Below are positions 1,018 to 34,413 of a stretch of DNA of 41,181 nucleotides, piece after piece. The stretch covers positions 1 through 41,181 of the forward strand of contig CALCGD010000255.1 of NCBI GenBank assembly GCA_937900875.1. Direction: 5' to 3'. The stretch comes from an uncultured Flavobacteriales bacterium (GTDB taxonomy: Bacteria > Bacteroidota > Bacteroidia > UBA10329). Under the pieces are notes generated by a model that made no database searches, was not told where the DNA came from, and saw only the letters and a list, made by a program, of their open reading frames with translations. The translations under genes and the position numbers were made by a program. Numbering within the stretch: the stretch's first letter is position 1; the number at the start of each line of letters is the position of its first letter.

Positions 1018-3267
1018 TTAGTTGTGACGGTAAAGCGTCACAGTGCCTTTGATGACTTTTGGCTCAAACGTGTTGAATTTCTTGAGAGTGAAAACATATA
1101 CGTACATGCCTTGCTTCACTTCTTTTCCAGAACTTCTCATTGTGCCATCCCACCATTTGGTCGGATTGTCTGTTTCCCAAATTAGCTTGCCCCAACGATC
1201 GTAAATCTGAACGTTGTAACTCTCGTATTCAAAGTTCTGACCCACTGGTCCCCACGTATCGTTAAGACCATCTTCGTCTGGGGTAAATCCGCTTGGTACA
1301 TAGAAAGTAAACATTGGATCAACTTCCATGTATTGGAAAGATGTATCGGCACAGCCATACTGTGGTTCATTGTACGAAATCAACATTACTAAGAACACGC
1401 CAGATGTATCGTAAGAGTGCTCAGGGTTTTCTTCATATGAAACGTTTCCATCTCCAAAATGCCACTCGTATGTTAGAGCACCAGCACTTTCGTTATCAAA
1501 CTGAACCAATGGGTCAATGAATTCTTCCGGCTTAGAACGACTTACAAAGTTGGAATAAGGCGGAGGAATAAGTGATACTTCTATACTGCCTTCAATCATA
1601 CAGCCATTGGAGTCCGTTACCAACACATTATAGTCACCGTGGTCAAGGCTAGTAATTCGGTTCCATTGCAGTAAATCATTCGTTACGTAGTGGGCAGAAT
1701 CTGCAATTGAATTCCATCTATACACGTAAGGCTGTGTTCCTCCTTGCATTTCAGCTCTAATTGCTCCATTACTCAATAGGCAAGTATCTGCTCCTGAACT
1801 TAGGTCTAAAATAAGTGGCAATGGTTCTGTTAAAGAAAAGGTAGTGTCTGAAACACAGTTTTGAGCATCTGTAATAGTAACAGTATATGCGCCAGGTGCT
1901 AGCCATTGAACAGAATCAGTTGTTTGAGCCAATGGATCATTCCAAGAAACTGAGTACGCTCCAGAAGGAAAGGCAATTCCACCAGCGGGCTCTACCTTCG
2001 CTCTACCATTATCATCTCCGTTACAGAGTATGTCTGTGTGAGAAGCGTTAACTACCAACAACTCAGGTTGGTCAATAATGAAGTCTAATGATGTTTGGCA
2101 TCCTACACCGTCCGTTACAGTAACCGCATAAGTGCCTGCCACAAGGCCCCCAAGTGTGTCAATTCCAAAAACATTATTTATTTGCTGCACCTGTGCTCCT
2201 GTACCATTGTAGAGGGTAAACGACACTGGGTAAGAACTTCCGATAGGGTCTACGCTTACAAATCCATCGGCAAAACCAAAGCATCTTGCATCGGTAGCCT
2301 CCACCGTAATGTCTACGTTTCCTAAAGAAACCAAGATAGAATCTATTGCAGGTTCATTATTACATGGGTAATCCCACTCGCAATAGTACCATGTAGCAAC
2401 CGTTGGAGACACAGTAATTGAGGTAGTGTTGCCAAGCTGATTTCCAAATTCATCGTACCAAAGAAGGTCGTTGTTTGTGGTTACTGGCTCTGGGTCAAAC
2501 GGAATGGGGTTCATGGTGTAACCTCCAATCCCATCTGGAACAAACTCGTATCCGTCATTTGCCACAGACCATTGAGTTGGGAAATTTCTTCCTGGAACGA
2601 TATGACCAACAGTTCCTGTAGCGTTCTCAAGTCCCTGAATTGCAGCTCCACCATTCCAAGCTGCGCAGAGCGGCTTGCTTGCAAGGTGCATTTCTATTCG
2701 ATTAGAAGTTTCGTAAAGCACTAACTGATTGGTGAATTCTAAAGTGGTGCAGCTAAACATTGCAACTGCATCATAGGTAACCACAAATCGTCTGTTCGGA
2801 GCTGTACCACAAGTAACAGAACTTACCGTACCGCTCACTCCAGGGTTTGTGTCTTGCCAAGGGAACATAATCTTGTTGTTGGTAGTGAAACCAGGGCTAG
2901 GTGCAGCGGCATTAATACTCCATTGCGACCCTCCGTTTGCTCCGGTAAGGTCGAATGTGATGTAACTGTTAGACGAGATTACACACTGGTTGTAAATGTT
3001 TCCGTAGTAATCAAAATCGAAGCCCATCGCAACCACACCAGTGTGCGAGTCATCTGTGAGCTGATAAGTTGCTGGTTGAGCACCACCAGAACCGCCACCG
3101 TTAAGCACGGCTACTAAGTCTACGGGTGTTCCGTTACAAACAGATGTGTCGGGCGGACCAATATCCACGGTCTGCGCATTTATCTCAATCGGATTTGCGA
3201 AGATTACGGCTAGGCCGATAATCGCAATAAGTCCGAAATGGGTGATTTTAAAGGATGGGTAGTTCAT
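1018..3267 (-). CDS. T9SS-secreted SprB-repeat / PKD protein with type B (gliding-motility) sorting domain
   Basis: I take ATG at 3267 (749 aa); an upstream in-frame TTG at 3285 would only prepend six residues to a clear signal peptide ending INAQ. Order of domains: N-terminal beta-rich region (about 35-310) with several Cys; three SprB-like repeats (about 315-575), each with a C-x-G/DG start and an AGTYAVTVTDGVGC-type end; a PKD domain (about 580-650) with WHFGDGNVSYEENPEHSY; and a type B CTD (about 655-749) with VPSGFTPDEDGLNDTW, IYDRWGKLIWE and WWDGT. The CTD directs export through the T9SS to the cell surface (known for the family). It is the third gene of the apparent sigma-factor operon, 41 nt after the preceding gene. 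Surface adhesion or gliding is inferred only from the domains. Confidence 0.92.
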   Translation of the reverse strand: MNYPSFKITHFGLIAIIGLAVIFANPIEINAQTVDIGPPDTSVCNGTPVDLVAVLNGGGSGGAQPATYQLTDDSHTGVVAMGFDFDYYGNIYNQCVISSNSYITFDLTGANGGSQWSINAAAPSPGFTTNNKIMFPWQDTNPGVSGTVSSVTCGTAPNRRFVVTYDAVAMFSCTTLEFTNQLVLYETSNRIEMHLASKPLCAAWNGGAAIQGLENATGTVGHIVPGRNFPTQWSVANDGYEFVPDGIGGYTMNPIPFDPEPVTTNNDLLWYDEFGNQLGNTTSITVSPTVATWYYCEWDYPCNNEPAIDSILVSLGNVDITVEATDARCFGFADGFVSVDPIGSSYPVSFTLYNGTGAQVQQINNVFGIDTLGGLVAGTYAVTVTDGVGCQTSLDFIIDQPELLVVNASHTDILCNGDDNGRAKVEPAGGIAFPSGAYSVSWNDPLAQTTDSVQWLAPGAYTVTITDAQNCVSDTTFSLTEPLPLILDLSSGADTCLLSNGAIRAEMQGGTQPYVYRWNSIADSAHYVTNDLLQWNRITSLDHGDYNVLVTDSNGCMIEGSIEVSLIPPPYSNFVSRSKPEEFIDPLVQFDNESAGALTYEWHFGDGNVSYEENPEHSYDTSGVFLVMLISYNEPQYGCADTSFQYMEVDPMFTFYVPSGFTPDEDGLNDTWGPVGQNFEYESYNVQIYDRWGKLIWETDNPTKWWDGTMRSSGKEVKQGMYVYVFTLKKFNTFEPKVIKGTVTLYRHN

Positions 3268-3308
3268 TTTCTTTTGTGTGAGCAATTTTCAAAGATACAA
3301 AGTTGTGC

Positions 3309-4616
3309 TTAGCGTGATAGGGTTATTTTTCCGTTGAAAACCTTGTTGTTTACTACGTTTTCTTTCAATACAACAGTCCAGATGTAAATTCCTTCATCGA
3401 GCTTTTGTCCTGAGTTATTTCTTGTTCCATTCCAAGCATCCAATGCATTGGATGTTCTGTACACCACTTCGTTTGTTTTTGGATCGAGAATGCTCATTTC
3501 AAAAGCAATTCCCATTTCTGGAAGGGCTTCCGGAATGAAGTTTTCGTTGAGCCCATCTCCATTTGGTGTAAAACTGGTTGGTGCTAGTAAATCAAATTCT
3601 TTGAGTGCGTCATACGATTCACTCATTGTGGTAGAGCATCCATAGTTGTTAGACACAGTTACGCTTGCCGTAGATGTACCTGCTTCTCTAAAAAGGTGTA
3701 CCACCGAATTTCCTACAGCCTTGGCGCCATCAGAAAAACTCCAAATTGCAGTTTCTGATGGTTGCACCGCGGTTGCAAACTTGTAAAGCGGAATGGCAAC
3801 ATAGCCGTTCAACTTTCTCTCTGCCGAGAAAATAGGGGTTGGGGTTGGATTCACATTTACAGTTACAGTATGTTCTGCGGTTTGATTGTTTTTGCTTCCT
3901 ACTAAGCGAACAGTATAAGTACCCTCGTTTACGTAGTTATGCACGGGGTTAGATTCTACTTCAGTTGTCCCATCTCCAAAGTCCCATCTCATAGATGCAG
4001 ATTTGTCAGAAGATTCATTTATGAAACTAACATCATCGCCTACGCAAGCAATTAAGGTGCTGGCTAAGAATTTAGCTACAAAAGGCTTTGCAGTAACTTC
4101 ATTGCTAGGTTCCTTTTCAGGTGTGGTAGGTTCTTTTTTATCTGTTGTTAAATTGCTGTTGTTATCTGTAGTAGCAACAACATTTTCTGTCTTTACAACT
4201 GGCTGAGTTTCCTCTTTTACAACAGGGACAACTGCATTAGTATTGGTTGCTTTTGCATCAGCAACATGTGCTTTTACTTCTGTAATTGCTTTTTGCGTAG
4301 AGGTCTCTTGGTTAACGGTTTCTGTTTCTTCCGAATTTACAACGTTTACCTCCTCAGCAGGAACTGTTTGCTCAATGGCAACATCCTCTGTGATAACTGT
4401 TTTGTCAGTGTTTGTAAAGTACCAAGCGGTAGCTATGGTAGTTGCTAAAACGGCAACCAGTGCGGCAGCTTTCCAGCCAATTTGGCTTCCTCCAGCGGAG
4501 GTAGCTGTACCCGCAGCAGGTAATTGCTGAGCTAATTCTGCCCAAGCACCTGCATCGTAAGGCATCTCGAAATTCTCGAGACTCTCCTTTATTTTATTAT
4601 CCAATGGGTTATTCAT
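3309..4616 (-). CDS. Single-pass membrane protein with PKD domains and T9SS type B domain; candidate anti-sigma-like regulator
   Basis: 435 aa from ATG 4616, six bases after the sigma-factor stop. Residues 1-47 look cytoplasmic and contain a short motif (ESLENFEMPYDAGAWAELAQ) of a type I associate with Bacteroidota membrane proteins encoded next to ECF sigma genes. One membrane segment spans 48-67 (WKAAALVAVLATTIATAWYF) with no cleavable signal peptide. A low-complexity Thr/Val/Glu/Lys linker covers about 68-180. PKD domain 1 (about 183-262) has WDFGDGTTEVESNP; a second, weaker one is about 270-335 (WSFSDGAKAVG). The C-terminus (about 342-435) is a type B sorting domain: PTSFTPNGDGLNENF, DAWNGTRNNSG, LDEGIYIW. 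A signal anchor together with an export CTD is odd. The anti-sigma role is inferred from position and the N-terminal motif; no zinc anti-sigma HxxxCxxC is present. Confidence 0.88.
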   Translation of the reverse strand: MNNPLDNKIKESLENFEMPYDAGAWAELAQQLPAAGTATSAGGSQIGWKAAALVAVLATTIATAWYFTNTDKTVITEDVAIEQTVPAEEVNVVNSEETETVNQETSTQKAITEVKAHVADAKATNTNAVVPVVKEETQPVVKTENVVATTDNNSNLTTDKKEPTTPEKEPSNEVTAKPFVAKFLASTLIACVGDDVSFINESSDKSASMRWDFGDGTTEVESNPVHNYVNEGTYTVRLVGSKNNQTAEHTVTVNVNPTPTPIFSAERKLNGYVAIPLYKFATAVQPSETAIWSFSDGAKAVGNSVVHLFREAGTSTASVTVSNNYGCSTTMSESYDALKEFDLLAPTSFTPNGDGLNENFIPEALPEMGIAFEMSILDPKTNEVVYRTSNALDAWNGTRNNSGQKLDEGIYIWTVVLKENVVNNKVFNGKITLSR

Positions 4617-4622
4617 GTTTTC

Positions 4623-5198
4623 TTAAAGTCGATCTGCAAATTGCTTCCTCAATAGTTTTCTCATGTTCATTCTGGCTTTTGCCAAGTTTGATTTTGAGGT
4701 TCCTACGCTAATTCCGAGTTCATCTGCTATTTCTTGGTGCGAAAAACTCTCCATTACATACAGGTTAAAAACCATTTGATATGCTGGTGAGAGTTGTTGC
4801 ATTGCTTCTATAACGTGTTTTGGTTGAATGGTTTCCTCTGGTTCATCAAAAAATTCATGTTCGTCTTTGTCGTCTGCAAGATTTAGTACGCGATAATCAT
4901 CATCTGGCACTAGGTCTTGATGTTTTTTCCTTCTAAACGAATCAATTGCATTGTTTGTAAAAATCCTTCTCACCCATCCTTCAAACGACCCATCATGCTT
5001 GTACTTTTCAAGGTTTCCAAATAGCTTGATAAATCCTTCCTGCACTAACTCCTTTCCTTGGTCAAGGTCTTTGGTGTACCTCATGCACACACTCAACATT
5101 TTGCCGTAAAACTGCTCGTAGATTTTCTGCTGGCATCTGCGGTCGTTTTTCAGACAACCCGCTATTAGATCTTGGAGCTCTTGTTTGGTTGGTTGCAC
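4623..5198 (-). CDS. ECF-type RNA polymerase sigma-70 factor
   Basis: An ECF sigma factor directing core RNA polymerase to a specific promoter set. Region 2 contains IYEQFYGKMLSVCMRYTKD, an acidic stretch (ELVQEGFIKLFGNL) and FEGWVRRIFTNNAIDSFRRKK. Region 4 contains LSPAYQMVFNLYVMES, then the helix-turn-helix HQEIADELGISVGTSKSNL. No suitable ATG exists at the N-terminus. I chose GTG at 5198 (191 aa), which gives the usual ECF length. An upstream in-frame TTG at 5258 would add 20 residues, but it lies inside a possible -7 element (TATCTTG) and so may be untranslated. Length otherwise normal. It heads a row of genes for a putative membrane regulator and secreted adhesin-like proteins, which it may control. 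Confidence 0.93.
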   Translation of the reverse strand: MQPTKQELQDLIAGCLKNDRRCQQKIYEQFYGKMLSVCMRYTKDLDQGKELVQEGFIKLFGNLEKYKHDGSFEGWVRRIFTNNAIDSFRRKKHQDLVPDDDYRVLNLADDKDEHEFFDEPEETIQPKHVIEAMQQLSPAYQMVFNLYVMESFSHQEIADELGISVGTSKSNLAKARMNMRKLLRKQFADRL

Positions 5199-5343
5199 GC
5201 GTTTAGATAACGAGGGTGAATTATTGGGGTTGCCTAGCGAAAAATGAATTATGCGCAAGATACGTACAGTTGAATTCCATACGGTTTTATCTGACGGTTG
5301 ATAAATTGAAAGAAAGTTCTTGGAAACTGGCGGTTCAATGCTT

Positions 5344-6830: not shown

Positions 6831-7235
6831 TCAATCTAAAAACCGCGTTTTCCATGTTGCGTTAGGCACCCAACAAGCCTCTTTTTTCCCAAACCAACGG
6901 TACCTGTTTTTTGCAACCCAATCATAAATCGGATTGCGAATAAAGGTTGGAACGATGAGAAATACCGAACCTATTTTCCAAACTCCATGTAAATGCTTTG
7001 CAAGTTTTAAAGCAGCATCACTCTTTACAAACACATCCCCATTTTCTACATACACAAGGCTTTCGGCATAGTTTGCGGGCAGGGTAGAGTTTTTTACTAG
7101 CTCTTTCCCAAAATCGGACTGCAGCGAAGCAAACTGAATATTTTCTTTCGAATTGTGTTTAAGAATGAACTGAACAGAGGTTTGGCATAAATTGCACAAG
7201 CCGTCATACAACAGAACGGGGTTCTGTGTATTCAT
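6831..7235 (-). CDS. Thiol-disulfide oxidoreductase-like DCC family protein (DUF393)
   Basis: 134 residues with the family signature near the N-terminus: VLLYDGLCNLCQTSVQFIL, giving D11, C14 and C17 (the D-x-x-C-x-x-C that names the DCC family). Later family features are IQFASLQSDFGKEL and an aromatic/basic C-terminal region with YDWVAKNRYRWFGKKEACW. A redox function is proposed for the family but not established. Its ATG shares one base with the stop of the upstream FG-GAP protein gene (TAATG), so translation is probably coupled. Role relative to the secreted protein is unknown. Confidence 0.85.
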   Translation of the reverse strand: MNTQNPVLLYDGLCNLCQTSVQFILKHNSKENIQFASLQSDFGKELVKNSTLPANYAESLVYVENGDVFVKSDAALKLAKHLHGVWKIGSVFLIVPTFIRNPIYDWVAKNRYRWFGKKEACWVPNATWKTRFLD

Positions 7236-10003
7236 TATTTCTGAATGATAAACCGTTTAGTGGCCATCTGTTTTTCGCCCCGAAGGTTCAGTAAATAAAT
7301 GCCGTTTTGGAGCACCGAAAGATCTATCGATTCCTTAATTAAATCGTTGCTCAATCCTGTCCAAACTACTTCTCCAAGCACGTTAAATACGGTCATTTCT
7401 ACACGGCCGTCCATGGCTACATCTGGCTCAATAACCAAGGTGCCTGTGGTTGGGTTTGGATACAAACGCAATCCATAACCCGACATGTTTTCGGCCTCCG
7501 CAAGGTTGTTGATTACCACTCCTTCAGTTGCGCCTTTGTAATAGGCTAGGCCACCAGCTAGGTTGCCAATAATCAATTCTGGCAGTTGGTCGTTGTTTAA
7601 ATCGCCCAAACAAATGGTAGACCGTTCGCCCTCATAAACAGGAAACTCGCCCGCATTATTAAAAGAGGGCTTAACCGTCAAAGTGAAGTTAGGCCGCTCC
7701 ATATTCGAACCTTCATAGACAATGCCGCAGCCGCTAAAATTATTTGAACTACTGTATGCATTAGAATTAAAAGAAGTGGTGGAGAATTGCACGTTCAAAT
7801 CGTCTGTTGCGCCTGGATTGGTCTGAAACCAACAGAATTCGATAATGAGGTTTGATTGCCCATCCCAAACTATTGGGGTTTGTGCGGTGTATTCTACCAA
7901 CCCTTGCGGTACGGTACCTGTCGAAACGAAGTAAACACTCGAAAATCCATCGACAAAACCATTGAGTTCGTCAAGATTTGTTTGACCCATTTTTACATAA
8001 AATTGAGCGTGGGTCGCACTGGGTCCATTTTCTGTTTCTAAGGCTAACTTTTCTATGACGCCTTGCGCCAAACCAGCGTCAGTTAGTTCGTCTGCCCGCA
8101 GCAAATATTGGTTGCGCCCACTTTTAGTGGAGAATCCAAAAGGTGTTGTTTCGTTTGATGTACTGAATGTAGTGCCATCGCCAATGTCAGCTATTAATTG
8201 CTCTGGGCCATTTATTACAGATGTGATTCCATTGTAGAGGTCAATTACCCCGCTTTCTGAACCTACAAGCATTTGTATTTCTCCTTCATTTTCGAACATA
8301 TACGGAGCGCTATACCCGAAAGAAAGCCCGTTTCTGCGCATGTCTACACCGCCCCAGCCGCTGTTGTCCAACACAAAAGTTGGGCTTTGCGCTGTGCCTT
8401 CGTTCATATATAGATTAAGATTGCCGTTTCGTTCGCCAATTACCAAGTCAAGAAGAAGGTCTCCGTCTACGTCAAACAAAAACGGAGTGGCAAACTGCCC
8501 TGTAATGTTAATGCCCTGAAAGCCTGGAGAAGTGAGTGTAAAACTGCATGGATTTCCTGCTCCTGCGCTATTCTCAAAATAATGTACCAAGCCGGCAGCG
8601 TCACCAATTATCATATCGTAATCTCCGTCAGCGTCAAGGTCACCAAATGTTGGCGCCACATTGCCAAGTCCAAGGGTTGAAATACCGTTGAGGTTTCGGT
8701 TTTGTAGGGTGAATTCAGGTTGCGTGGCAGTGCCTGTGTTTCTGTAATATGCTAGCTGAGAGGAGTAGGTTCCAGTACTCACAAAATAACCTCTATTGCC
8801 AACCAAAAGGTCGGTAAGTCCATCTTGGTCGTAATCGAAAAGTACGGGGTATGCCGCAGTTCCAAGTTCAATCATTTCGTCTTGCAAAAAGTTATTCTTC
8901 ACATAGCTTAAGTCAAAGGCTGAACTAGAATTGTTTGTGTACAAATAGCTTCCATGGTAATCATGACCATTATTTTCCTGATAAGGTGAAGCGATTAAAT
9001 CAACCTTCCCATCGTTGTTTACGTCTGCCAAAAACGCTGCAGGAAAGGTGTAAATGTTAATAGGGTCCGTGTTAAGGAAGTTTTGAGGAAAGGTTAAATC
9101 TTGGGCTCCCATGTTGGCACTTGTTGCATCGCCATCATTTGTAAGAATATTCATGGTGTTGAAGCTTACAATACTTACAACAAGGTCTTGGTCTCCATCG
9201 CCCTCAATGTCCAATCCAAGCATGGTAAAACCAGAATGAGCACCTGCGTTAGCTGCCGATTGTTGCGTAGCGCCTATGTTATTTCCTCCCTTGCAGCTAA
9301 CATTCAGATTTACCGAAACAGAAGAAGGATCCTCTTCAAAATTCCCCCAGCAAGGGTCGGCAAGAATCATTGTCATACTATCGGGTATTCCATACAATTC
9401 CATCGATTGATTTTGATGGTATTCGGCTGCAGTTCCAAAGAGACTAAACGTAACCACATCCATATCAGAATCTCCATCCACATCCATAATAGCAGGCAAA
9501 TCGGTTGGACTTACATATATGTTTATCAAACCGTTGCCATAGTCTGATAGTAATTTCCCTGTAATGAGTGTAAATATGAGGGTGTCTTCATTTCCATCAT
9601 TTCTATAAACAGCCATTCCTCCGTTGGAATAGCTGAAAATGTCTGTTTTCCCGTCTGCGTTAAAATCACGAAGCAGAATCCAATCGTGCAGTCGTGGTCT
9701 TGACGGACTGTGTTGGTTGGTAAACATTTCTCGATACTCGGAAGCAATTTCTAGTTCGTTTGAGGCATTTGTTCTAAGACAAACAATCTTGTCTCCGCTT
9801 TTATCAAAAACCAATAAATCGTTTCTACCATCAGAATCAAAATCCATGTTCGAGAACTGTGGATGGTTTAATCCACCTGCCCAAGGGAAACTGAGCACCC
9901 CATTTTCTTCAGTTACTTGTACTGAGTCAAACCTGTTGAAGTAAAGCTGACCGTAACTCGAAAATTGAAGAAATAAAAAGGCAAGGCAAAAAATGATTCT
10001 CAT
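7235..10003 (-). CDS. Secreted FG-GAP/VCBS repeat beta-propeller protein with T9SS type A sorting domain
   Basis: 922 residues from ATG 10003. An N-terminal signal peptide (MRIIFCLAFLFLQFSSYGQ) is followed by many FG-GAP/VCBS repeats with calcium-binding loops such as DFDSDGRNDLLVFD, DFNADGKTDIF, DVDGDSDMDVV, DVNNDGKVDLIAS, DYDQDGLTDLLVG and DLDADGDYDMIIGD. Such repeats build an integrin-like beta-propeller. A beta-rich segment with few repeats spans about 600-790, then one more repeat (DLNNDQLPELIIGN). The last about 80 residues are a type A CTD: LRLYPNPTTGTLVIEP, VFNVLGEVVW, LQNGIYLLNL. It is predicted to be T9SS-exported and cell-surface or released. Coupled to the DUF393 gene. Ligand unknown. 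Confidence 0.93.
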   Translation of the reverse strand: MRIIFCLAFLFLQFSSYGQLYFNRFDSVQVTEENGVLSFPWAGGLNHPQFSNMDFDSDGRNDLLVFDKSGDKIVCLRTNASNELEIASEYREMFTNQHSPSRPRLHDWILLRDFNADGKTDIFSYSNGGMAVYRNDGNEDTLIFTLITGKLLSDYGNGLINIYVSPTDLPAIMDVDGDSDMDVVTFSLFGTAAEYHQNQSMELYGIPDSMTMILADPCWGNFEEDPSSVSVNLNVSCKGGNNIGATQQSAANAGAHSGFTMLGLDIEGDGDQDLVVSIVSFNTMNILTNDGDATSANMGAQDLTFPQNFLNTDPINIYTFPAAFLADVNNDGKVDLIASPYQENNGHDYHGSYLYTNNSSSAFDLSYVKNNFLQDEMIELGTAAYPVLFDYDQDGLTDLLVGNRGYFVSTGTYSSQLAYYRNTGTATQPEFTLQNRNLNGISTLGLGNVAPTFGDLDADGDYDMIIGDAAGLVHYFENSAGAGNPCSFTLTSPGFQGINITGQFATPFLFDVDGDLLLDLVIGERNGNLNLYMNEGTAQSPTFVLDNSGWGGVDMRRNGLSFGYSAPYMFENEGEIQMLVGSESGVIDLYNGITSVINGPEQLIADIGDGTTFSTSNETTPFGFSTKSGRNQYLLRADELTDAGLAQGVIEKLALETENGPSATHAQFYVKMGQTNLDELNGFVDGFSSVYFVSTGTVPQGLVEYTAQTPIVWDGQSNLIIEFCWFQTNPGATDDLNVQFSTTSFNSNAYSSSNNFSGCGIVYEGSNMERPNFTLTVKPSFNNAGEFPVYEGERSTICLGDLNNDQLPELIIGNLAGGLAYYKGATEGVVINNLAEAENMSGYGLRLYPNPTTGTLVIEPDVAMDGRVEMTVFNVLGEVVWTGLSNDLIKESIDLSVLQNGIYLLNLRGEKQMATKRFIIQK

Positions 10004-13735: not shown

Positions 13736-14764
13736 ATGAAGGTAAAACTGGAATACATTTGGCTTGACGGTTACGAGCCAACCCAAAACATGAGATCTAA
13801 AACCAAGGTCGAAGAGCATGAAAATTTTCAAGGAACATTAGAAGAGCTAGGTAACTGGTCGTTTGACGGTTCTTCAACTCAACAAGCAGTTGGAGGGTCT
13901 TCAGATTGTCTATTGGTTCCTGTTGCTATTTTTCCAGATCCTGCTAGAGACAATGGTTGGTTGGTTATGACAGAAGTTTACAATGCTGACGGAACACCGC
14001 ATGTGTCTAACGGTAGATCTACCATCCAAGATGAGGATAATGACTTCTGGTTCGGTTTTGAACAAGAATACTTTATCATGGATAGAGAAACTGAATTGCC
14101 TTTAGGATTCCCAAGAGGTGGTTATCCAGGACCACAAGGAATGTACTATTGCTCAGTTGGCGGAAGACACACCTTCGGAAGAGAATTAGTTGAAGAACAC
14201 GCTGATCTTTGTATTGCTGCAGGTTTAAACTTTGAGGGAATTAATCAAGAAGTAGCTTCTGGACAATGGGAGTTTCAATTGTTTGCGAAAGGAGCAAAGA
14301 AAGCCGGTGATGAGGTTTGGGTTGCTAGATACTTGTTGGATAGACTTACTGAAAGCTATGGCTGGTATATTGAATACCATCCAAAGCCAATTAAAGGAGA
14401 TTGGAATGGCTCTGGAATGCACGCAAACTTCTCGAATACTACTTTAAGAACATGCGGTTCTAAAGAGGTTTATGAAAGAATTTGTGAGGCTTTTAGACCT
14501 CTAACAGAGGAGCATATTGATGTATATGGAGCTCATAATGACCAACGATTAACTGGTTTGCATGAGACCGCATCTATCAGCGACTTCTCTTACGGTATAT
14601 CTGATAGAGGTGCTTCAATCAGAATTCCGTTAATGACTGTTGAAAAAGGTTGGAAAGGTTATTTAGAAGACAGACGACCAGCTTCTAACGCGAATCCATA
14701 CAAGGTTGCTGCTAGAATTATTAAAACGGTATCTGAAGCGGAAGCAAAGCTAGTTAGCGCCTAA
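13736..14764 (+). CDS. Glutamine synthetase, type II (eukaryote-like)
   Basis: Makes glutamine from glutamate, ammonia and ATP. At 342 residues it fits the short GSII type, not the about 470-residue GSI. The N-terminal beta-grasp domain contains YIWLDGYEPTQNMRSKTK and WSFDGSSTQQA. Catalytic-domain motifs: FGFEQEYFIMD (metal and glutamate ligands), GPQGMYYCSVGG, EGINQEVASGQWEFQ, NGSGMHANFSN, and near the end DRGASIRIPL and LEDRRPASNANPY. No adenylylation-site Tyr of the GSI type is expected. It stands directly upstream of a type III enzyme, with a hairpin terminator between them. Confidence 0.95.
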   Translation: MKVKLEYIWLDGYEPTQNMRSKTKVEEHENFQGTLEELGNWSFDGSSTQQAVGGSSDCLLVPVAIFPDPARDNGWLVMTEVYNADGTPHVSNGRSTIQDEDNDFWFGFEQEYFIMDRETELPLGFPRGGYPGPQGMYYCSVGGRHTFGRELVEEHADLCIAAGLNFEGINQEVASGQWEFQLFAKGAKKAGDEVWVARYLLDRLTESYGWYIEYHPKPIKGDWNGSGMHANFSNTTLRTCGSKEVYERICEAFRPLTEEHIDVYGAHNDQRLTGLHETASISDFSYGISDRGASIRIPLMTVEKGWKGYLEDRRPASNANPYKVAARIIKTVSEAEAKLVSA

Positions 14765-14786
14765 TCTATTTTATGAACAACAAATT

Positions 14787-14813
14787 AAGGCTCGGAATTT
14801 CCGAGCCTTTTTT
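14787..14813 (+). terminator. Intrinsic terminator between the GSII and GSIII genes
   Basis: A perfect 10-bp stem (14787-14796 with 14800-14809), a 3-base loop and a run of six T ending at 14813. The GSIII ATG is at 14829, leaving 15 bases and no visible promoter, so GSIII expression may depend on read-through. Confidence 0.88.
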
Positions 14814-14828
14814 GGCTAAAACAAGAGC

Positions 14829-17024
14829 ATGTCAACACAAAGATTTCAAGCATTGCAGGAGGTTAATAGAAGAAAGCCTGTTGATGTAAAACTGCCAGAC
14901 GATAAAGTTTCAAACTACTTTGCCTCTTCCGTTTTTTCGTGGAAGGTAATGCGGGAACATCTACCAGCGGAGGTTTACACCACCTTACGTACATGCGTAG
15001 ATAAAGGCGGACAGATTGATAGAGGAACTGCAGAACAAGTAGCCGCTTCCATGAAATCTTGGGCACTCGGTAAAGGAGCAACGCACTACACACATTGGTT
15101 TCAACCACTTACTGGTTCAACCGCAGAAAAGCATGACGCCTTTTTTGAGCCCTTGGCAGATGGCTTTTCAATGGAAGCCTTTGGAGGAGATAAGCTAATT
15201 CAGCAAGAACCAGATGCATCAAGTTTTCCAAATGGAGGAATACGAAACACTTTCGAAGCTAGAGGTTACACTGCCTGGGACCCTTCATCTCCCGCATTTG
15301 TAATAGGCAGAACGCTATGTATTCCTACGGTTTTTGTTGCGTACACTGGAGAATCGCTCGATCATAAAGCGCCTTTATTGCGCTCAGTTCACTTTTTGGA
15401 TAAGGCCGCCACCACCGTAGTTCAGGAATACTTCGATAGAAACGTATCAAGAGTTATTTGTACCCTCGGTTGTGAGCAAGAATACTTTTTAGTTGACCGA
15501 GCACTTTTTAACGCTCGCCCAGATTTGGCACTTACTGGCAGAACGCTTTTCGGGCATTCGTCTGCCAAAGACCAGCAGTTGGATGATCATTACTTCGGTT
15601 CTATTAATGATAGAGTTACCGCTTACATGCGCGATTTTGAAACCGAGGCCCTGAAGCTTGGCATTCCCGTAAAAACCCGGCATAATGAAGTTGGCCCAGG
15701 GCAATTTGAATGCGCCCCAGTATTTGAGGAGGTGAGCTTGGCGGTAGATCACAACCAATTATTAATGGATGTGATGGAGAAGGTTGCTTTTCGTCACGAT
15801 TTCCGAGTTCTTTTTCATGAAAAACCATTTGCTGGTATAAACGGTTCTGGAAAACACAACAATTGGGCTCTAGCCACAGATACGGGTAAGAATCTTCTTA
15901 GCCCAGGTAAAACACCCAAGAAGAACATTCAGTTTCTAACCTTTTTCATCACCACAATAAAGGCGGTTCATGAACATGCAGATTTGCTGAGGGCCAGTAT
16001 TGCAAGCGCAAGTAATGACCATCGTCTTGGGGCTAATGAAGCTCCACCGGCAATTATGTCCGTTTTCATAGGGTCTTTTTTAAGTCAGGTATTGGATGAT
16101 ATTGAACAGTGGGTAAAGCAAGGAGAAAAATTGTCTCCAGATGAAAAAACCGAGCTCAAACTCAGCATTATCAAGATTCCCGAAATATTATTGGATAATA
16201 CCGATAGAAACAGAACATCACCGTTCGCATTTACCGGAAACAAATTTGAGTTTAGAGCAGTTGGCTCTACAGCTAACTGTTCTTCTGCTATGATGGTGCT
16301 GAATACTATTGTTGCAGACCAGTTGGTTAAGTTTCATGAAGAGGTGCAAAGCCTTGTTGCCACTGGAATGAAGAAGGATGATGCAATTTTTCAGGTATTG
16401 AGAAGATATATCATCGATTCTAAAAAGATTCGATTTGAAGGCAATGGATATGGCGAAGAGTGGGTGAAGGAGGCGGAAAAGCGAGGACTTTCTAATATCA
16501 AAACTACTCCAGATGCACTGGATTTGGTGTTAACTCCTAAATCGAGAAAACTCTTTGAACTCAATGAGATTTTAAGCGAACGAGAATTAGATGCGAGGTA
16601 TGAGATAGATCTTGAGCGTTACACTAAAAAACTTCAAATAGAATCTCGTGTGATGGGTGATTTAGCTACCAATCACGTAATTCCAACGGCAATTGAATAC
16701 CAGAATGTTCTTATTGCAAACGTAACGGGGTTGAAGCAGGTGCTTACCAAAAAGGAGTTTGAAGTCTTGGCAAGCGAACCTATGAGCATTATTAGAGAGA
16801 TTTCTCAAAGAATGACAGCAATCCGTAAGCTTGTAGAAGGGATGACTGAGCAAAGAAAAGTTGCCAATAAGCACCAGAGTCCAAGAGCCCAAGCGGGGGA
16901 TTATTGCAATAATGTGTTACCATTTTTCAATCAAATTAGAAGGGAAGTAGATAGGTTAGAGTTAGTCGTCTCTGATGAGTACTGGCCTCTACCTAAATAT
17001 CGGGAGCTTCTTTTTAATAGATAA
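14829..17024 (+). CDS. glnN: Glutamine synthetase, type III (GlnN)
   Basis: The large GSIII enzyme typical of Bacteroidota (731 residues; family about 700-730). Same reaction as GSII, different oligomer. Motifs: VSNYFASSVFSWKVMREHLP at the N-terminus, a GSIII-specific TAWDPSSPAF and RTLCIPTVFVAYTGE, then catalytic CEQEYFLVDRALF, TRHNEVGPGQFECAPVFEE, FAGINGSGKHNNW, and DRNRTSPFAFTGNKFEFRAVGS. The C-terminal helical region ends with the PLPKYREL motif. The start agrees with the usual GSIII N-terminus. No terminator is evident in the 141 bases before the porE-like gene, which has its own candidate promoter. Confidence 0.96.
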   Translation: MSTQRFQALQEVNRRKPVDVKLPDDKVSNYFASSVFSWKVMREHLPAEVYTTLRTCVDKGGQIDRGTAEQVAASMKSWALGKGATHYTHWFQPLTGSTAEKHDAFFEPLADGFSMEAFGGDKLIQQEPDASSFPNGGIRNTFEARGYTAWDPSSPAFVIGRTLCIPTVFVAYTGESLDHKAPLLRSVHFLDKAATTVVQEYFDRNVSRVICTLGCEQEYFLVDRALFNARPDLALTGRTLFGHSSAKDQQLDDHYFGSINDRVTAYMRDFETEALKLGIPVKTRHNEVGPGQFECAPVFEEVSLAVDHNQLLMDVMEKVAFRHDFRVLFHEKPFAGINGSGKHNNWALATDTGKNLLSPGKTPKKNIQFLTFFITTIKAVHEHADLLRASIASASNDHRLGANEAPPAIMSVFIGSFLSQVLDDIEQWVKQGEKLSPDEKTELKLSIIKIPEILLDNTDRNRTSPFAFTGNKFEFRAVGSTANCSSAMMVLNTIVADQLVKFHEEVQSLVATGMKKDDAIFQVLRRYIIDSKKIRFEGNGYGEEWVKEAEKRGLSNIKTTPDALDLVLTPKSRKLFELNEILSERELDARYEIDLERYTKKLQIESRVMGDLATNHVIPTAIEYQNVLIANVTGLKQVLTKKEFEVLASEPMSIIREISQRMTAIRKLVEGMTEQRKVANKHQSPRAQAGDYCNNVLPFFNQIRREVDRLELVVSDEYWPLPKYRELLFNR

Positions 17025-17108: not shown

Positions 17109-17137
17109 TTGGGTAATCAAATAATTCTTTATTTTAG
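17109..17137 (+). promoter_or_regulatory. Candidate promoter of the porE-like gene
   Basis: TTG (17109-17111), 18-base spacer and TATTTTAG (17130-17137), one mismatch from TAnnTTTG. If correct, the in-frame TTG at 17109 cannot be a start codon, supporting ATG 17166. Confidence 0.45.
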
Positions 17138-17165
17138 CGCCCGTGTTAAAACAAGCATAAAGACC

Positions 17166-19163
17166 ATGAGAATAACCAAGTTCTTACTAATAGCCATCAT
17201 TGCAGGATTGTTTTCAATCAATGCAAGTGCCCAGAAAGGTCATCTTGCTGAGGCGAATCTTGCATATGATGCAAAAGAATATTTCAAAGCGATAACGCTT
17301 ATGAAAAAAGCCTATTCTAAAGAAAAGGATAAGGCAAACAAGGCTGAAATAATCTTTAAAACAGCCGAAAGCTATCGCTTTGTTAATGATATAAAGCAAG
17401 CGGAAACTTGGTACCGTAAGGCTATTAAGATTAAGTATCCTGAAAACAAGATTCAGTTGTATTACGCTGATGCGCTTAAGGCAAACGGAAAGTTTGAAGA
17501 TGCGATTGTGGAATATGAGAAGTATGCTGAATTAGCACCAGAAGATCCAAGAGGAAAGAATGGTGCTGAAGCGTGTGCTCTTGCTCAGAAATGGATTGAT
17601 AATCCATCTCGTTATGTAGTTGAGAATGAGGTTCAATTGAACGGTAAGCAAATGGATTTTGCTCCATCTTACGCTTCTGCTAATCACAAAGACGTGTATT
17701 TCACATCATCTAGAGACAATGCTTCTGGAAACGATGTAGATGGATGGACCGGACAAGGATTTACTGATGTCTTTACAGCATCAATTGACAATAAAGGAAA
17801 GTGGAGCAAGCCTAAGCCGCTCCCTGCTACAATCAACAGTATATATAATGAAGGTGCTTCTGTTATGAACACAGACTTCACTGCTTTAATCTTTACGCGT
17901 TGTGGTGTGAAGAAAAAAGTGAAAATGGGCTGTGAGCTGTATCATTCTAAGAAGTCAGGAGACAGCTGGTCAGAGCCAGAATTATTACCATTCTTCGCTA
18001 AAGCTGAAGGAGATGATAGTACTCAAGTAACCGTGGGTCATCCAGCACTATCTGCAGACGGAAAGACTTTGGTTTTTGCTTCTGACGCTGTTGGTGGCAA
18101 AGGCGGACGTGATATTTGGAAGTCTAAATACAATGATGAAAAGCAGAGATGGGAGAAGCCAACACCAGTCGAGTCAGTTAATACTGCTGGAGACGAAATG
18201 TACCCTTTCCTTCACAATGATGGAACGCTTTACTTCGCATCTAATGGTCATATCGGAATGGGTGGTCTAGACATCTTTATGGCGGAAAGCCAAGGAGATT
18301 CTTGGGGTAACGTTACAAATATGAGATACCCAATCAACTCAGCGGGAGATGATTTCGCAATCATTTTTGAAAAGGAACAAGAAAAAGGATACTTCACTTC
18401 AAACCGTGAAGACGGAAAAGGAAGCGATGATATTTATTCATTCCTACTTCCTGCACTTAAGTTCACACTTTGCGGAATAGTATCTGATTTCAAGACCAAA
18501 AAGGTTATTGATGGAGCGACTGTTTCTTTGGTAGGAACAGATGGTTCTTCTATGGAAACTACTACTGATTCTGAAGGAAAGTATTGCTTCGATCTTTCTC
18601 CTGCTACATCATATGTAATTACCGCTGGAAAGAAAGACTACTACCTAAACAAAACTGGAAAGACAACCACAGTAGGATTTGAAGAAGACAAAGACCTTGT
18701 TCACGACTTCGAATTGGATCCAATCAATAGAGTTATCGACCTTCCAAACATTTTCTACGATTTAGGAAAATGGGACTTACGTCCAGAGTCTAAAATTGCG
18801 CTCGATGGTTTGATTGAGACATTGAACGATAACCCAACGATTGTAATCGAGCTTGGTTCTCACACAGATACAAGAGCATCTGATAGCTATAACCTATCGC
18901 TTTCACAAAAACGTGCTCAGTCTGTTGTTGATTATCTAATCGACAATGATATTGATGGCGCGAGATTGGTTGCAAAAGGGTATGGAGAAACTACTCCTAA
19001 AGTTCTTGACACTGCTGTTGGCGAATTTGCTAAGGGAAGCGTAATCAACGATGCTTTCATCGCTAAGTTGGCAACTGAGGAGTTAAGAGAAGAAGCTCAT
19101 CAGCTGAATCGTAGAACTGAATTTAAAGTTCTTAGAAACGATTTCGTTCCTAAAGGAAACTAG
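17166..19163 (+). CDS. porE: PorE-like T9SS envelope protein: TPR, PD40 propeller, carboxypeptidase-regulatory-like and OmpA domains
   Basis: 665 residues from ATG 17166. Signal peptide MRITKFLLIAIIAGLF...ASAQ, with no lipobox Cys. Domain order: TPR helices (about 25-150; ANLAYDAKEYFKAITLMKKA, AETWYRKAIKI), a PD40/WD40-like beta-propeller (about 165-440; VYFTSSRDN, LVFASDAVGGKGGRDIW, LYFASNGHIGMGGLDIF, GYFTSNREDGKGSDDIY), a carboxypeptidase-regulatory-like domain (about 445-525), and an OmpA peptidoglycan-binding domain (about 535-660; FYDLGKWDLRPES, ELGSHTDTRASDSYN, RLVAKGYGE). This order matches PorE of Porphyromonas gingivalis, an OM-to-peptidoglycan anchor of the T9SS. Paralogues with this order exist in Bacteroidota, so the symbol is likely, not certain. 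Confidence 0.82.
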   Translation: MRITKFLLIAIIAGLFSINASAQKGHLAEANLAYDAKEYFKAITLMKKAYSKEKDKANKAEIIFKTAESYRFVNDIKQAETWYRKAIKIKYPENKIQLYYADALKANGKFEDAIVEYEKYAELAPEDPRGKNGAEACALAQKWIDNPSRYVVENEVQLNGKQMDFAPSYASANHKDVYFTSSRDNASGNDVDGWTGQGFTDVFTASIDNKGKWSKPKPLPATINSIYNEGASVMNTDFTALIFTRCGVKKKVKMGCELYHSKKSGDSWSEPELLPFFAKAEGDDSTQVTVGHPALSADGKTLVFASDAVGGKGGRDIWKSKYNDEKQRWEKPTPVESVNTAGDEMYPFLHNDGTLYFASNGHIGMGGLDIFMAESQGDSWGNVTNMRYPINSAGDDFAIIFEKEQEKGYFTSNREDGKGSDDIYSFLLPALKFTLCGIVSDFKTKKVIDGATVSLVGTDGSSMETTTDSEGKYCFDLSPATSYVITAGKKDYYLNKTGKTTTVGFEEDKDLVHDFELDPINRVIDLPNIFYDLGKWDLRPESKIALDGLIETLNDNPTIVIELGSHTDTRASDSYNLSLSQKRAQSVVDYLIDNDIDGARLVAKGYGETTPKVLDTAVGEFAKGSVINDAFIAKLATEELREEAHQLNRRTEFKVLRNDFVPKGN

Positions 19164-32073: not shown

Positions 32074-34413
32074 ATGAAAAACTTTAACCTCGTTATTGCG
32101 ATTAGCATATTGCTCCTAACAAATCTTATTTCCGTTGGGCAGACCTCGCTAAATACTGCCCAGATTGGTCACCTATCATACAACCAATCTTTGAGTGAAG
32201 TGAGAGGAGCTTTGCACAATAACCGTGAGTATGCTCTGGTTGGGGTAAATAACGGTTTTTCAATTGTAGATGTTACCAATGCTGCTTCGCCAACTGAGAT
32301 TTTCTTCGAGGCTGGCCCTAACTCTATCTGGCGCGATCCATTTTACCATAACGGATATGCTTATTGCGTTACCGAAGGTGGTGGTGGTATGTTAATTGTC
32401 GATATGAGTCCGTTGCCAGGTAGTACATCGCTTACTACTACACTTTACACGGGAAGTCAGTTTAATATTTCTTCAGCTCATAACATGTTTATTGAGTCTG
32501 CTACCGAGCGCGCCTATTTATTTGGAACCAATGATGTGGACGGTGTAATTATCCTTGATATTTCAAACCCAATGAGTCCGGTTGAAATCGGAATTTGGAA
32601 TGACTACTACATACATGACGGATTTGTAAGAGGCGATACGCTTTGGGCTGGTTGTTTGGCTGACGGTGCATTTGTGGTTGATGTGTCGAATGCGGGTAGC
32701 CCGGTCATTCTTGCAAACTGGGATACACCAAGTGAATTTGCGCACAACATTTGGCCTTCAGATGACAATGCTTATTCGTACACCACGGATGAGGTTAATA
32801 GCGGTTTTGTTGCTGCCTACGACATGAGTAACCTCCAAAATGTGGTTGAATCTGATAAGGTAAGACACCCTTTGTCCGAAGGGGTAATTCCGCACAACAC
32901 ACATTTCCTAAATGATTACATAATTACGTCTCACTACCGAGATGGTCTTACTATTCATGATGTTTCAGACCCTTCAAACATTATTCTAACAGGTTATTTC
33001 GACTCGTCTCCATTGTCTGGCAGCGGTTTTAATGGCTCTTGGGGAGCATGGCCCTATTTACCTTCTGGAAACTTACTTATTGCTGATATTGAAGAAGGTC
33101 TTTTTGTGATTAGCGCAACGTATAAAAGAGGCGCAAGGCTTGAAGGAACGGTTACGGAGTTTGGAACATCAAACCCTCTTAATGATGTGCTCATTACGGT
33201 TGTTGGTGCAGGTCTTGTCGACAATTCTAACCTCTTCGGAGATTACGCCACAGGAACAGAAGCGGCTGGAACGTACAGCGTAACGTTCGAAAAAGGCGGA
33301 TACATTTCACAAACCATAGCTGGAGTCGAATTGGTGAACGGACAGATTGAAATTCTTGATGTTGAATTGGTTCCGGATGTTGCTTTCAATCTTTCAGGTA
33401 TGGTTACTGAAGAGGGAACAGGAAATCCAATTTCTGGTGCTACAGTTCAATTCGTAAATCCATTTTTCAATATTGAAGCAACTTCAAATGGCGCTGGAAA
33501 CTATTCAGAAAACGAGTTTTATGCTGGTCAGTATGAAGTTACCGTTGCCGCATGGGGTTATGTTGGAGAATGTTCGTTAATGGATATTACTTCTGGAGGA
33601 ACACCTCCGAATTTCGAATTACAAGTAGGATATCACGATGATTTTACGTTGGATTTAGGATGGACAGTAACTGGTAACGCAAGTGCTGGAGAATGGGAAA
33701 GAGACGTTCCAATTGAAACAACATTCGATAATAGTATTTCTAACCCTGGTACAGATTCTAACGGAGATTGTGGCGATCAAGCTTTTATTACTGGAAACGC
33801 TGGTGGTGGCGCGGGAAGTGATGATGTGGATGACGGAGTGACCATTCTTCGGTCGCCAGTAATGGATTTAACGAGTTATAATAATCCAACTGTGCAGTTT
33901 GATTATTGGTTTTTTAATGGAGGTGGAAGTTCAGGAGTTAATGATGAATTTATTGTAAAAGTGGACAACGGAACAAACGTGGTTACCCTAGCTTCATTAC
34001 CCCAAACTTCCAATGTTTGGACGCCTTATTCGAACACTCTCGCTTCTCAAATTAGCATTTCCACAACAATGCAGTTAGTGGTTGAGGTTGCTGACACAGA
34101 TCCAGGTCACTTAGTTGAAGGGGGATTAGATAAGTTCCGAATTGCTGAGGCGACTTCAATAGATGAGGAAACAGCTAATTCTGAGGTGTTCATTTATCCT
34201 AATCCAGCGAAAGGTATGGTAAGTATTAACGTAACATCAGAAACTACAAAAGGGATTGTTAAGTTTTACGATGTAACGGGCAAGTTAATTTATGAGAACA
34301 ATTCGCTTGTTAGAGGAGTTAACCAAGTAGTTATACCCACTTTGCCAGGTGTATATGTATGCGAAGTCTTTGTTAATAATGAACGTCATATTCAGCGGTT
34401 GCTAGTTCATTAA
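32074..34413 (+). CDS. Secreted choice-of-anchor-B-like protein with T9SS type A sorting domain
   Basis: 779 residues. Signal peptide ending ISVGQ. Residues about 30-350 are LVIVD-type propeller repeats: YALVGVNNGFSIVDVTNAASP, GMLIVDMSPLP, VIILDISNPMSPVEIG, GAFVVDVSNAGSP, GLTIHDVSDPSN. This is the layout of choice-of-anchor-B proteins. Two carboxypeptidase-regulatory-like domains follow (about 355-435 and 440-520, GTVTEFGTSNPLNDVLI and GMVTEEGTGNPISGATV), then a jelly-roll-like region with DSNGDCGDQAFITG. The last about 80 residues are a type A CTD: VFIYPNPAKGMVSINV, FYDVTGKLIYE, LPGVYVCEV. Predicted surface or released protein; function unknown. Confidence 0.9.
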   Translation: MKNFNLVIAISILLLTNLISVGQTSLNTAQIGHLSYNQSLSEVRGALHNNREYALVGVNNGFSIVDVTNAASPTEIFFEAGPNSIWRDPFYHNGYAYCVTEGGGGMLIVDMSPLPGSTSLTTTLYTGSQFNISSAHNMFIESATERAYLFGTNDVDGVIILDISNPMSPVEIGIWNDYYIHDGFVRGDTLWAGCLADGAFVVDVSNAGSPVILANWDTPSEFAHNIWPSDDNAYSYTTDEVNSGFVAAYDMSNLQNVVESDKVRHPLSEGVIPHNTHFLNDYIITSHYRDGLTIHDVSDPSNIILTGYFDSSPLSGSGFNGSWGAWPYLPSGNLLIADIEEGLFVISATYKRGARLEGTVTEFGTSNPLNDVLITVVGAGLVDNSNLFGDYATGTEAAGTYSVTFEKGGYISQTIAGVELVNGQIEILDVELVPDVAFNLSGMVTEEGTGNPISGATVQFVNPFFNIEATSNGAGNYSENEFYAGQYEVTVAAWGYVGECSLMDITSGGTPPNFELQVGYHDDFTLDLGWTVTGNASAGEWERDVPIETTFDNSISNPGTDSNGDCGDQAFITGNAGGGAGSDDVDDGVTILRSPVMDLTSYNNPTVQFDYWFFNGGGSSGVNDEFIVKVDNGTNVVTLASLPQTSNVWTPYSNTLASQISISTTMQLVVEVADTDPGHLVEGGLDKFRIAEATSIDEETANSEVFIYPNPAKGMVSINVTSETTKGIVKFYDVTGKLIYENNSLVRGVNQVVIPTLPGVYVCEVFVNNERHIQRLLVH

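Follow-up and report, generated by a model that had tools for sequence, protein, structure and literature searches.

A putative Dma-like anti-sigma factor with a relative of a type IX secretion signal, and its predicted regulon of secreted cargo, in the Flavobacteriales

A contig from an uncultured Flavobacteriales bacterium, of which a piece of 41,181 nt was analysed (the window), raises the question of why a gene for an extracytoplasmic function (ECF) sigma factor should be followed directly by one for a membrane protein that resembles both an anti-sigma factor and a cargo protein of the type IX secretion system (T9SS). The two genes lie at positions 3309–5198 and are read on the minus strand; coordinates are those of the window. 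The answer favoured here, with a probability of roughly 0.55, is that the pair is a switch in which a trans-envelope anti-sigma factor, similar to the Dma proteins, would probe the T9SS with a cargo-like tip while its sigma factor drives the expression of cargo genes. Observed by computation were a conserved gene pair, the architecture of the membrane protein, an N-terminal domain in common with relatives that lack the cargo-type C-terminal domain (CTD), a distinct clade of CTDs, and a promoter situated before cargo and PorP/SprF genes.

The sigma factor gene occupies positions 4623–5198 (minus strand). A GTG at 5198 is the best start in an alignment of orthologues, the stop lies at 4623, and the resulting protein of 191 aa matches the orthologues and contains the Pfam domains Sigma70_r2 (4.4e-14) and r4_2 (6.9e-15). 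Six bases separate it from an open reading frame (ORF) of 435 aa at 3309–4616 (minus strand), the layout that a sequence-only reading of this DNA had described and that was seen again in the ORF and Pfam analysis. From its architecture and conservation, the 435-aa product is a putative Dma-like anti-sigma factor whose terminal domain is related to type B CTDs.

The architecture of this protein was examined with AlphaFold2 (AF2), using a model built on a 48-sequence alignment. Residues 1–33 (4518–4616, minus strand, as are all further features of this gene) constitute a predicted sigma-binding helical hairpin, with helices at 4–14 and 22–31. They are the most conserved part of the protein (69 % identity within the genus versus 15 % in the linker), and W25 is invariant among 17 aligned sequences. 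A segment of about 47 residues precedes a single hydrophobic helix at residues 48–68 (4413–4475), which is predicted to remain uncleaved. Beyond it lies a disordered periplasmic tether rich in T, V, E and N (residues 69–175; 4092–4412), with disorder over most of 72–164 and a predicted local distance difference test score (pLDDT) under 50 over 72–159. Confident beta domains extend from about residue 177 to the C-terminus. Two of these, within residues 176–341 (3594–4091), are PKD-like (PF18911/PF00801); the best structure matches of 177–257 and 258–341 are PKD folds, with Z values of 14.4 and 11.5, respectively. The N-terminal segment, single helix, long linker (approximately 70–175) and PKD domains proposed in the sequence-only reading are therefore confirmed. 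The spacing from helix to CTD is roughly 200–290 residues in 52 CTD-type proteins, the exception being L088 with 60. That protein (L088:6545-7195), from a record titled Chlorobiota, is a minimal form of 217 aa, composed of the N-terminal unit, the helix, this short linker and a CTD that has diverged strongly, without PKD domains.

The N-terminal W-motif unit is not confined to proteins with a CTD. It also heads long CTD-less and short proteins situated beside related sigma factors (hhalign 98.4 % and 98.8 %, respectively, with E 6e-15 for the long proteins), the units having been cut around their first W for this comparison. The long CTD-less proteins, called barrel-type here from their length and C-terminal sequence, share the layout published for the Dma anti-sigma factors, namely an N-terminal sigma-binding domain, a transmembrane helix, a disordered tether and a C-terminal beta-barrel (PMC13088901). 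Dma proteins are known from Bacteroides, and Dma1 controls the neighbouring sigma factor, Das1 (PMC13088901). By this homology, in which kinship to Dma was judged via Bacteroidota relatives with the Dma layout, the 435-aa protein is very probably the anti-sigma factor of the neighbouring sigma factor, to which it is predicted to bind. Like Dma, it combines a gene order with an ECF sigma factor, an N-terminal sigma-binding domain, one transmembrane helix, a long disordered tether and a C-terminal module directed to the outer membrane. It differs in that Dma ends in a beta-barrel and the 435-aa protein in PKD domains followed by a relative of the type B CTD, and in that the predicted regulon here is T9SS cargo, whereas that of Dma comprises vesiculation or glycan genes. 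It would thus work like Dma while lacking the beta-barrel, and is best regarded as a presumptive Dma variant. In six of the CTD-less relatives (L034, L047, L048, L074, L104 and L114), the membrane helix is preceded by a tandem array of the W-motif unit, with between two and about five copies.

Conservation of the sigma/membrane-CTD pair was searched for, as the sequence-only reading had proposed, and the search bore the idea out: the same pair was found in all 8 same-genus genomes and recurs at dozens of divergent loci in other families. A scan of named genomes yielded 80 sigma loci, 35 of which have a complete CTD-type protein directly after the sigma gene; nearly all of the others have a long CTD-less or a short protein in that position. 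In an independent genome sample, 19 of 20 further loci were CTD-type. The arrangement of a sigma gene with a CTD-type gene is far beyond chance. Homologues of malate dehydrogenase (mdh) are present in 19 CTD-type loci, lying divergently beside the pair in the loci inspected; this synteny points to a single inherited locus. The genomes are mostly metagenome-assembled, and several record titles look wrong (e.g. L071 and L055). Three loci titled Glaciecola, Candidatus Kuenenia or Chryseobacterium (L071, L055 and L054) are Crocinitomicaceae- or Flavobacteriales-like, so that either the titles are probably wrong or the assemblies mixed. Co-occurrence of the pair with the T9SS has no power as evidence, because nearly every genome of the class has SprA (240/247). 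The host genome itself encodes SprA and six PorP/SprF-like proteins, none of them near the pair.

The C-terminal domain of the 435-aa protein, residues 342–435 (3312–3593), is a derived type B CTD-like domain. It matches CHU_C with 38.4 bits, above the cut-off of 27. With TIGR04131, the type B CTD model, the whole protein scores 28.7 bits and the domain alone 33.2, both below the cut-off of 35. The tryptophan of the NRWG turn is present in 45 of 46 cargo CTDs versus 0 of 48 CTDs of the sigma-linked family, and the arginine in 42 of 46 versus 9 of 48; the loss was probably a single ancestral change retained throughout, so these counts are not independent. P362-x-A364-L365 and W413 are typical of the sigma-linked clade. 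A tree was constructed from 98 CTDs (49 sigma-linked, 40 CTD matches from the host genome and nine from neighbouring cargo) over 94 columns, its inner order being weak. It is apparent that the sigma-linked CTDs cluster apart from those of cargo, the sole intruder being the long-branch L168, which is unlike a type B CTD. Mapping the CTD label onto the sigma tree requires four changes. Foldseek and VIA returned no type B CTD structure among the matches listed for residues 342–435, and no such structure had been solved according to PMC12618676. The description of this domain as a complete type B CTD, made in the sequence-only reading, was not upheld, given the TIGR04131 score and the absence of the NRWG tryptophan from all 48 family members.

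Could the 435-aa protein nevertheless be an ordinary exported T9SS cargo that merely lies behind a sigma gene, with the helix as its signal peptide? It has CHU_C and PKD domains, as adhesins do, and 26 of 52 CTD-type relatives have an A.A-type pattern close to where the helix ends. In those same 52 proteins, however, the helix starts at residue 39–70 (median 47), after the N-terminal domain of about 47 residues that is the most conserved part of the protein and that is also found in CTD-less proteins beside sigma genes. The proposal that the helix stays uncleaved, judged here from its position and from a cleavage pattern in only half of the relatives, is thus supported. The pairing with a sigma factor is conserved, and the CTDs form a clade separate from that of cargo. 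This explanation, which appears very improbable, was rejected on the helix position, the separate CTD clade and the N-terminal unit common to CTD-less relatives. Because the domain falls under the TIGR04131 cut-off, the NRWG is missing and, by anatomy, there is apparently no cleavable signal peptide, the 435-aa protein is not ordinary T9SS cargo. Its normal export is doubtful because its CTD belongs to a clade without the NRWG tryptophan, and the CTD is somewhat more probably export-dead, the protein remaining unexported, than functional as a signal.

An ECF-type promoter, with an AAC-type -35 and a CGT-type -10 as in autoregulated ECF systems, is present upstream of the sigma gene. This predicted autoregulatory promoter of the pair spans 5205–5238 (minus strand), with AGGCAACC as the -35 (5228–5235) and CGTTATC as the -10 (5206–5212). 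The pattern GGCAACY-N15-CGTY was found upstream of sigma in 29 of 32 CTD-type loci of other families, with 0.002 occurrences expected per 225-nt window; it was found at 1 of 24 barrel-type and 2 of 18 short-type loci. Loci of family f9 have a GGCATCC variant. A promoter matrix was trained on 30 sigma-promoter sites from other genera only, with a score of 12 or more counted as a match. The site at 5205–5238 scores 17.4 bits with this matrix, and scores of 12 or more were obtained at 20 of 20 held-out, freshly fetched sigma loci, a few of which may equal or nearly equal training loci (e.g. L345 and L349).

The matrix was then applied to the regions upstream of 31 genes for type B CTD proteins in a single genome, that of the host, these cargo genes having been picked by a model that rewards NRWG; supporting sites come from other families. 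Matches on the gene strand were found in 14 of the 31 regions, versus none on the opposite strand (0/31) or in reversed sequence (0/31), i.e. 0/62 controls in total. In the background, 2 of 164 windows match, both inside the sigma locus (Fisher p 5e-12 for cargo versus background and 2e-8 versus the strand controls). Many of the cargo sites lie 35–100 nt before the predicted start; some are 200 nt or more away, and two overlap the start. Independently of the matrix, an exact-pattern search of nine same-genus genomes gave 13 scored non-sigma sites, three of which belong to one orthologous family. Nine of the 13 precede large signal-peptide proteins; the reversed-pattern control for such proteins was positive in 1 of 60 tests. 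When the ORFs behind pattern sites were extended, nine were found to end in type B CTDs, of several families, and four in type A tails, those checked exceeding the TIGR04183 cut-off. The deep-branching locus L123 contributes two more sites, each preceding a cargo-like protein, and genome-wide pattern sites stand before T9SS cargo in several families. The host has ten further ECF sigma genes, none of them preceded by the promoter, with a single 16.6-bit site in L019 located past the sigma match; these other sigma factors are less likely readers of the motif. It is very likely, in view of these results, that the regulon of the sigma factor consists of T9SS cargo genes.

It had been suggested that the sigma factor tunes the adhesin-like genes downstream. 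The link to such genes stands, but through the wider predicted regulon and not through gene adjacency. The adjoining gene (1018–3285, minus strand), which encodes a type B T9SS cargo protein with SprB repeats, PKD and CHU_C domains, lies outside the conserved unit. Its likely start is the ATG at 3267, 41 nt past the anti-sigma stop, and it is probably co-transcribed with the pair in this genus only. A similar cargo gene follows the pair in the same-genus loci L050 and L051, and other genes follow it elsewhere; the downstream adhesin was rejected as a conserved target in any general sense, since other families have different genes after the pair.

A few observations touch on the promoter pattern more loosely. 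Two genomes of family f23 (L224, L225, L226, L223 and L227) show an excess of the strict pattern, with 8 sites versus 0 in the control; these precede cargo, genes for further ECF-like sigma factors and one for a small secreted protein, which hints at a cascade. In L194 and L208, from the same genus, the pattern stands before orthologous small genes starting NFLGHIFLTP, possibly a further target. The window also contains type A T9SS cargo genes at 7235–10003 (minus strand) and 32074–34413 (plus strand), with Por_Secre_tail as well as FG-GAP and LVIVD repeats; no strong matrix site was found at the start of either.

A sister lineage of the pair bears on what the CTD may sense. Its anti-sigma factor is short, lacks a CTD and ends near a conserved FGDxIDxxKG, and at seven of eight loci (L032, L033, L036, L038, L069, L079 and L335) the next gene is PorP/SprF-like, as called from PF11751 (1.8e-67) in L335 and from an N-terminal signature in the other six. 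The exception is L041, in which no PorP/SprF-like gene was present within the short stretch examined. In each of the seven loci, the matrix detects a site upstream of sigma and another upstream of PorP/SprF (17–26 bits). PorP-like proteins bind type B CTD proteins (PMC9143113). The presence of a promoter-bearing PorP/SprF gene beside the pair therefore ties the system to the T9SS: one lineage has a CTD on its anti-sigma factor, and its relative has the CTD's partner family in the same regulon. These findings bear on the alternative of a general envelope sensor in the manner of Dma1/Dma2, responding to a cue unrelated to the T9SS, with the CTD-like domain serving as a beta-sandwich anchor or ligand binder and the adhesins as part of the response. 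The Dma family functions without a T9SS in Bacteroides, where the signal is thought to be surface glycan (PMC13088901), and the CTD has lost its cargo hallmark. The CTD is nevertheless 53 % identical within the genus, exceeding the PKD domains, and the PorP/SprF gene under the same promoter and a predicted regulon of T9SS cargo also speak against such a sensor, which is considered unlikely.

The switch proposed here for T9SS cargo would operate as follows. The cytoplasmic W-motif hairpin would hold the ECF sigma factor at the inner membrane, where the helix would remain, and the tether and PKD domains would bring a CTD of cargo origin, probably crippled for export, close to the outer membrane. 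Its docking partner there would be the outer-membrane machinery of the T9SS, most probably a shuttle of the PorP/SprF type; altered docking would be relayed inward, freeing the sigma factor to transcribe the operon that encodes it, together with many T9SS cargo genes. In this scheme, we infer the binding of sigma and the docking of the CTD, as well as the signal and the way in which sigma is released. For the CTD as a sensor that docks on the T9SS, the odds are about even. The fuller version, that an export-dead cargo signal reads the state of the T9SS shuttle or translocon while sigma serves cargo and PorP/SprF genes, as a T9SS counterpart of FlgM/FliA, is tentative and rather less probable. 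As for the envelope-spanning anti-sigma factor with a T9SS-related module envisaged in the sequence-only reading, homology to Dma and the layout make it plausible, but the module is a derived CTD and not a complete cargo signal.

Several results weigh against this switch. The lost NRWG tryptophan may mean that the CTD no longer binds any part of the T9SS. Counts of the strict pattern per genome show no excess over the reversed pattern, only the position of the sites being informative. The T9SS component genes checked for the promoter were sprA and PorP/SprF; no site was found upstream of sprA in 20 of 20 genomes, and the T9SS translocon was rejected as a regulon target (0/20). For the structure prediction suggested in the sequence-only reading, the sigma factor was joined in frame to residues 1–49, the intervening TAA being translated as Q solely to permit co-folding; AF2 gave a predicted template modelling score (pTM) of 0.48 and no confident complex, a result that is not counted against binding itself.

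FlgM, a small, soluble and exported protein, forms with FliA the flagellar checkpoint. The switch would resemble FlgM/FliA in linking the state of a secretion machine to the sigma factor that serves its late, exported products, and would differ in that the 435-aa protein is anchored in the membrane and is unlikely to be exported. A closer analogue of FlgM can be imagined, in which the CTD remains functional as a T9SS signal. The anti-sigma factor would then be destroyed by the pull of the translocon or by cleavage of the tether, and active secretion would itself turn on the cargo genes. The CHU_C score above cut-off, the retention of most CTD positions and the long, flexible tether favour this scheme, and the evidence for a cargo regulon fits it equally well; the inner-membrane anchor argues against it, and it too is judged improbable.

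Comparison of the proposed switch with other T9SS-related systems is instructive. With type B cargo such as SprB and its PorP/SprF shuttles it has CTD homology in common, as well as the PorP/SprF gene beside the sister-lineage pair (PMC12618676, PMC9143113). Unlike such cargo, the 435-aa protein has an inner-membrane anchor and a cytoplasmic domain, apparently lacks a cleavable signal peptide, judging by its anatomy, has lost the NRWG tryptophan and has a CTD in a clade of its own. In Porphyromonas gingivalis, a CTD-bearing protein, PorA, likewise feeds an ECF sigma factor serving the T9SS through PorXY-SigP, but PorA is located at the surface, has a type A CTD and acts via a two-component system on component genes (PMC7712824); here the CTD sits on the putative anti-sigma factor itself and the predicted targets are cargo genes. 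The SM6 promoters of Flavobacterium psychrophilum share the CGT -10 box and have links to T9SS genes and an ECF sigma/anti-sigma pair (PMC9723704), but SM6 drives the components GldN and PorU, whereas the site described here precedes cargo and PorP/SprF, not sprA. No anti-sigma factor with a type B CTD was found in the literature searched (subscription papers, including the first Dma paper, lay outside its scope).

Little is known of how T9SS bacteria match the production of large surface proteins to their export capacity, and the T9SS regulators found in that literature (PorXY-SigP and the SM6 promoters) act on component genes. Described here are a sigma factor with a predicted promoter before many cargo genes and a putative anti-sigma factor carrying a domesticated cargo signal. 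If the proposed switch is correct, it would constitute a directly testable secretion checkpoint, it would imply that outer-membrane sensor modules can be exchanged within the Dma architecture, and the promoter matrix could be used to predict T9SS cargo regulons across the Flavobacteriales.

Elsewhere in the window, a single protein encoded at 17109–19163 (plus strand) combines TPR, PD40, carboxypeptidase-regulatory and OmpA domains, a combination characteristic of PorE-like T9SS proteins. Two adjoining glutamine synthetases, one ordinary (342 aa) and one of type III (731 aa), are encoded at 13736–17024 (plus strand).
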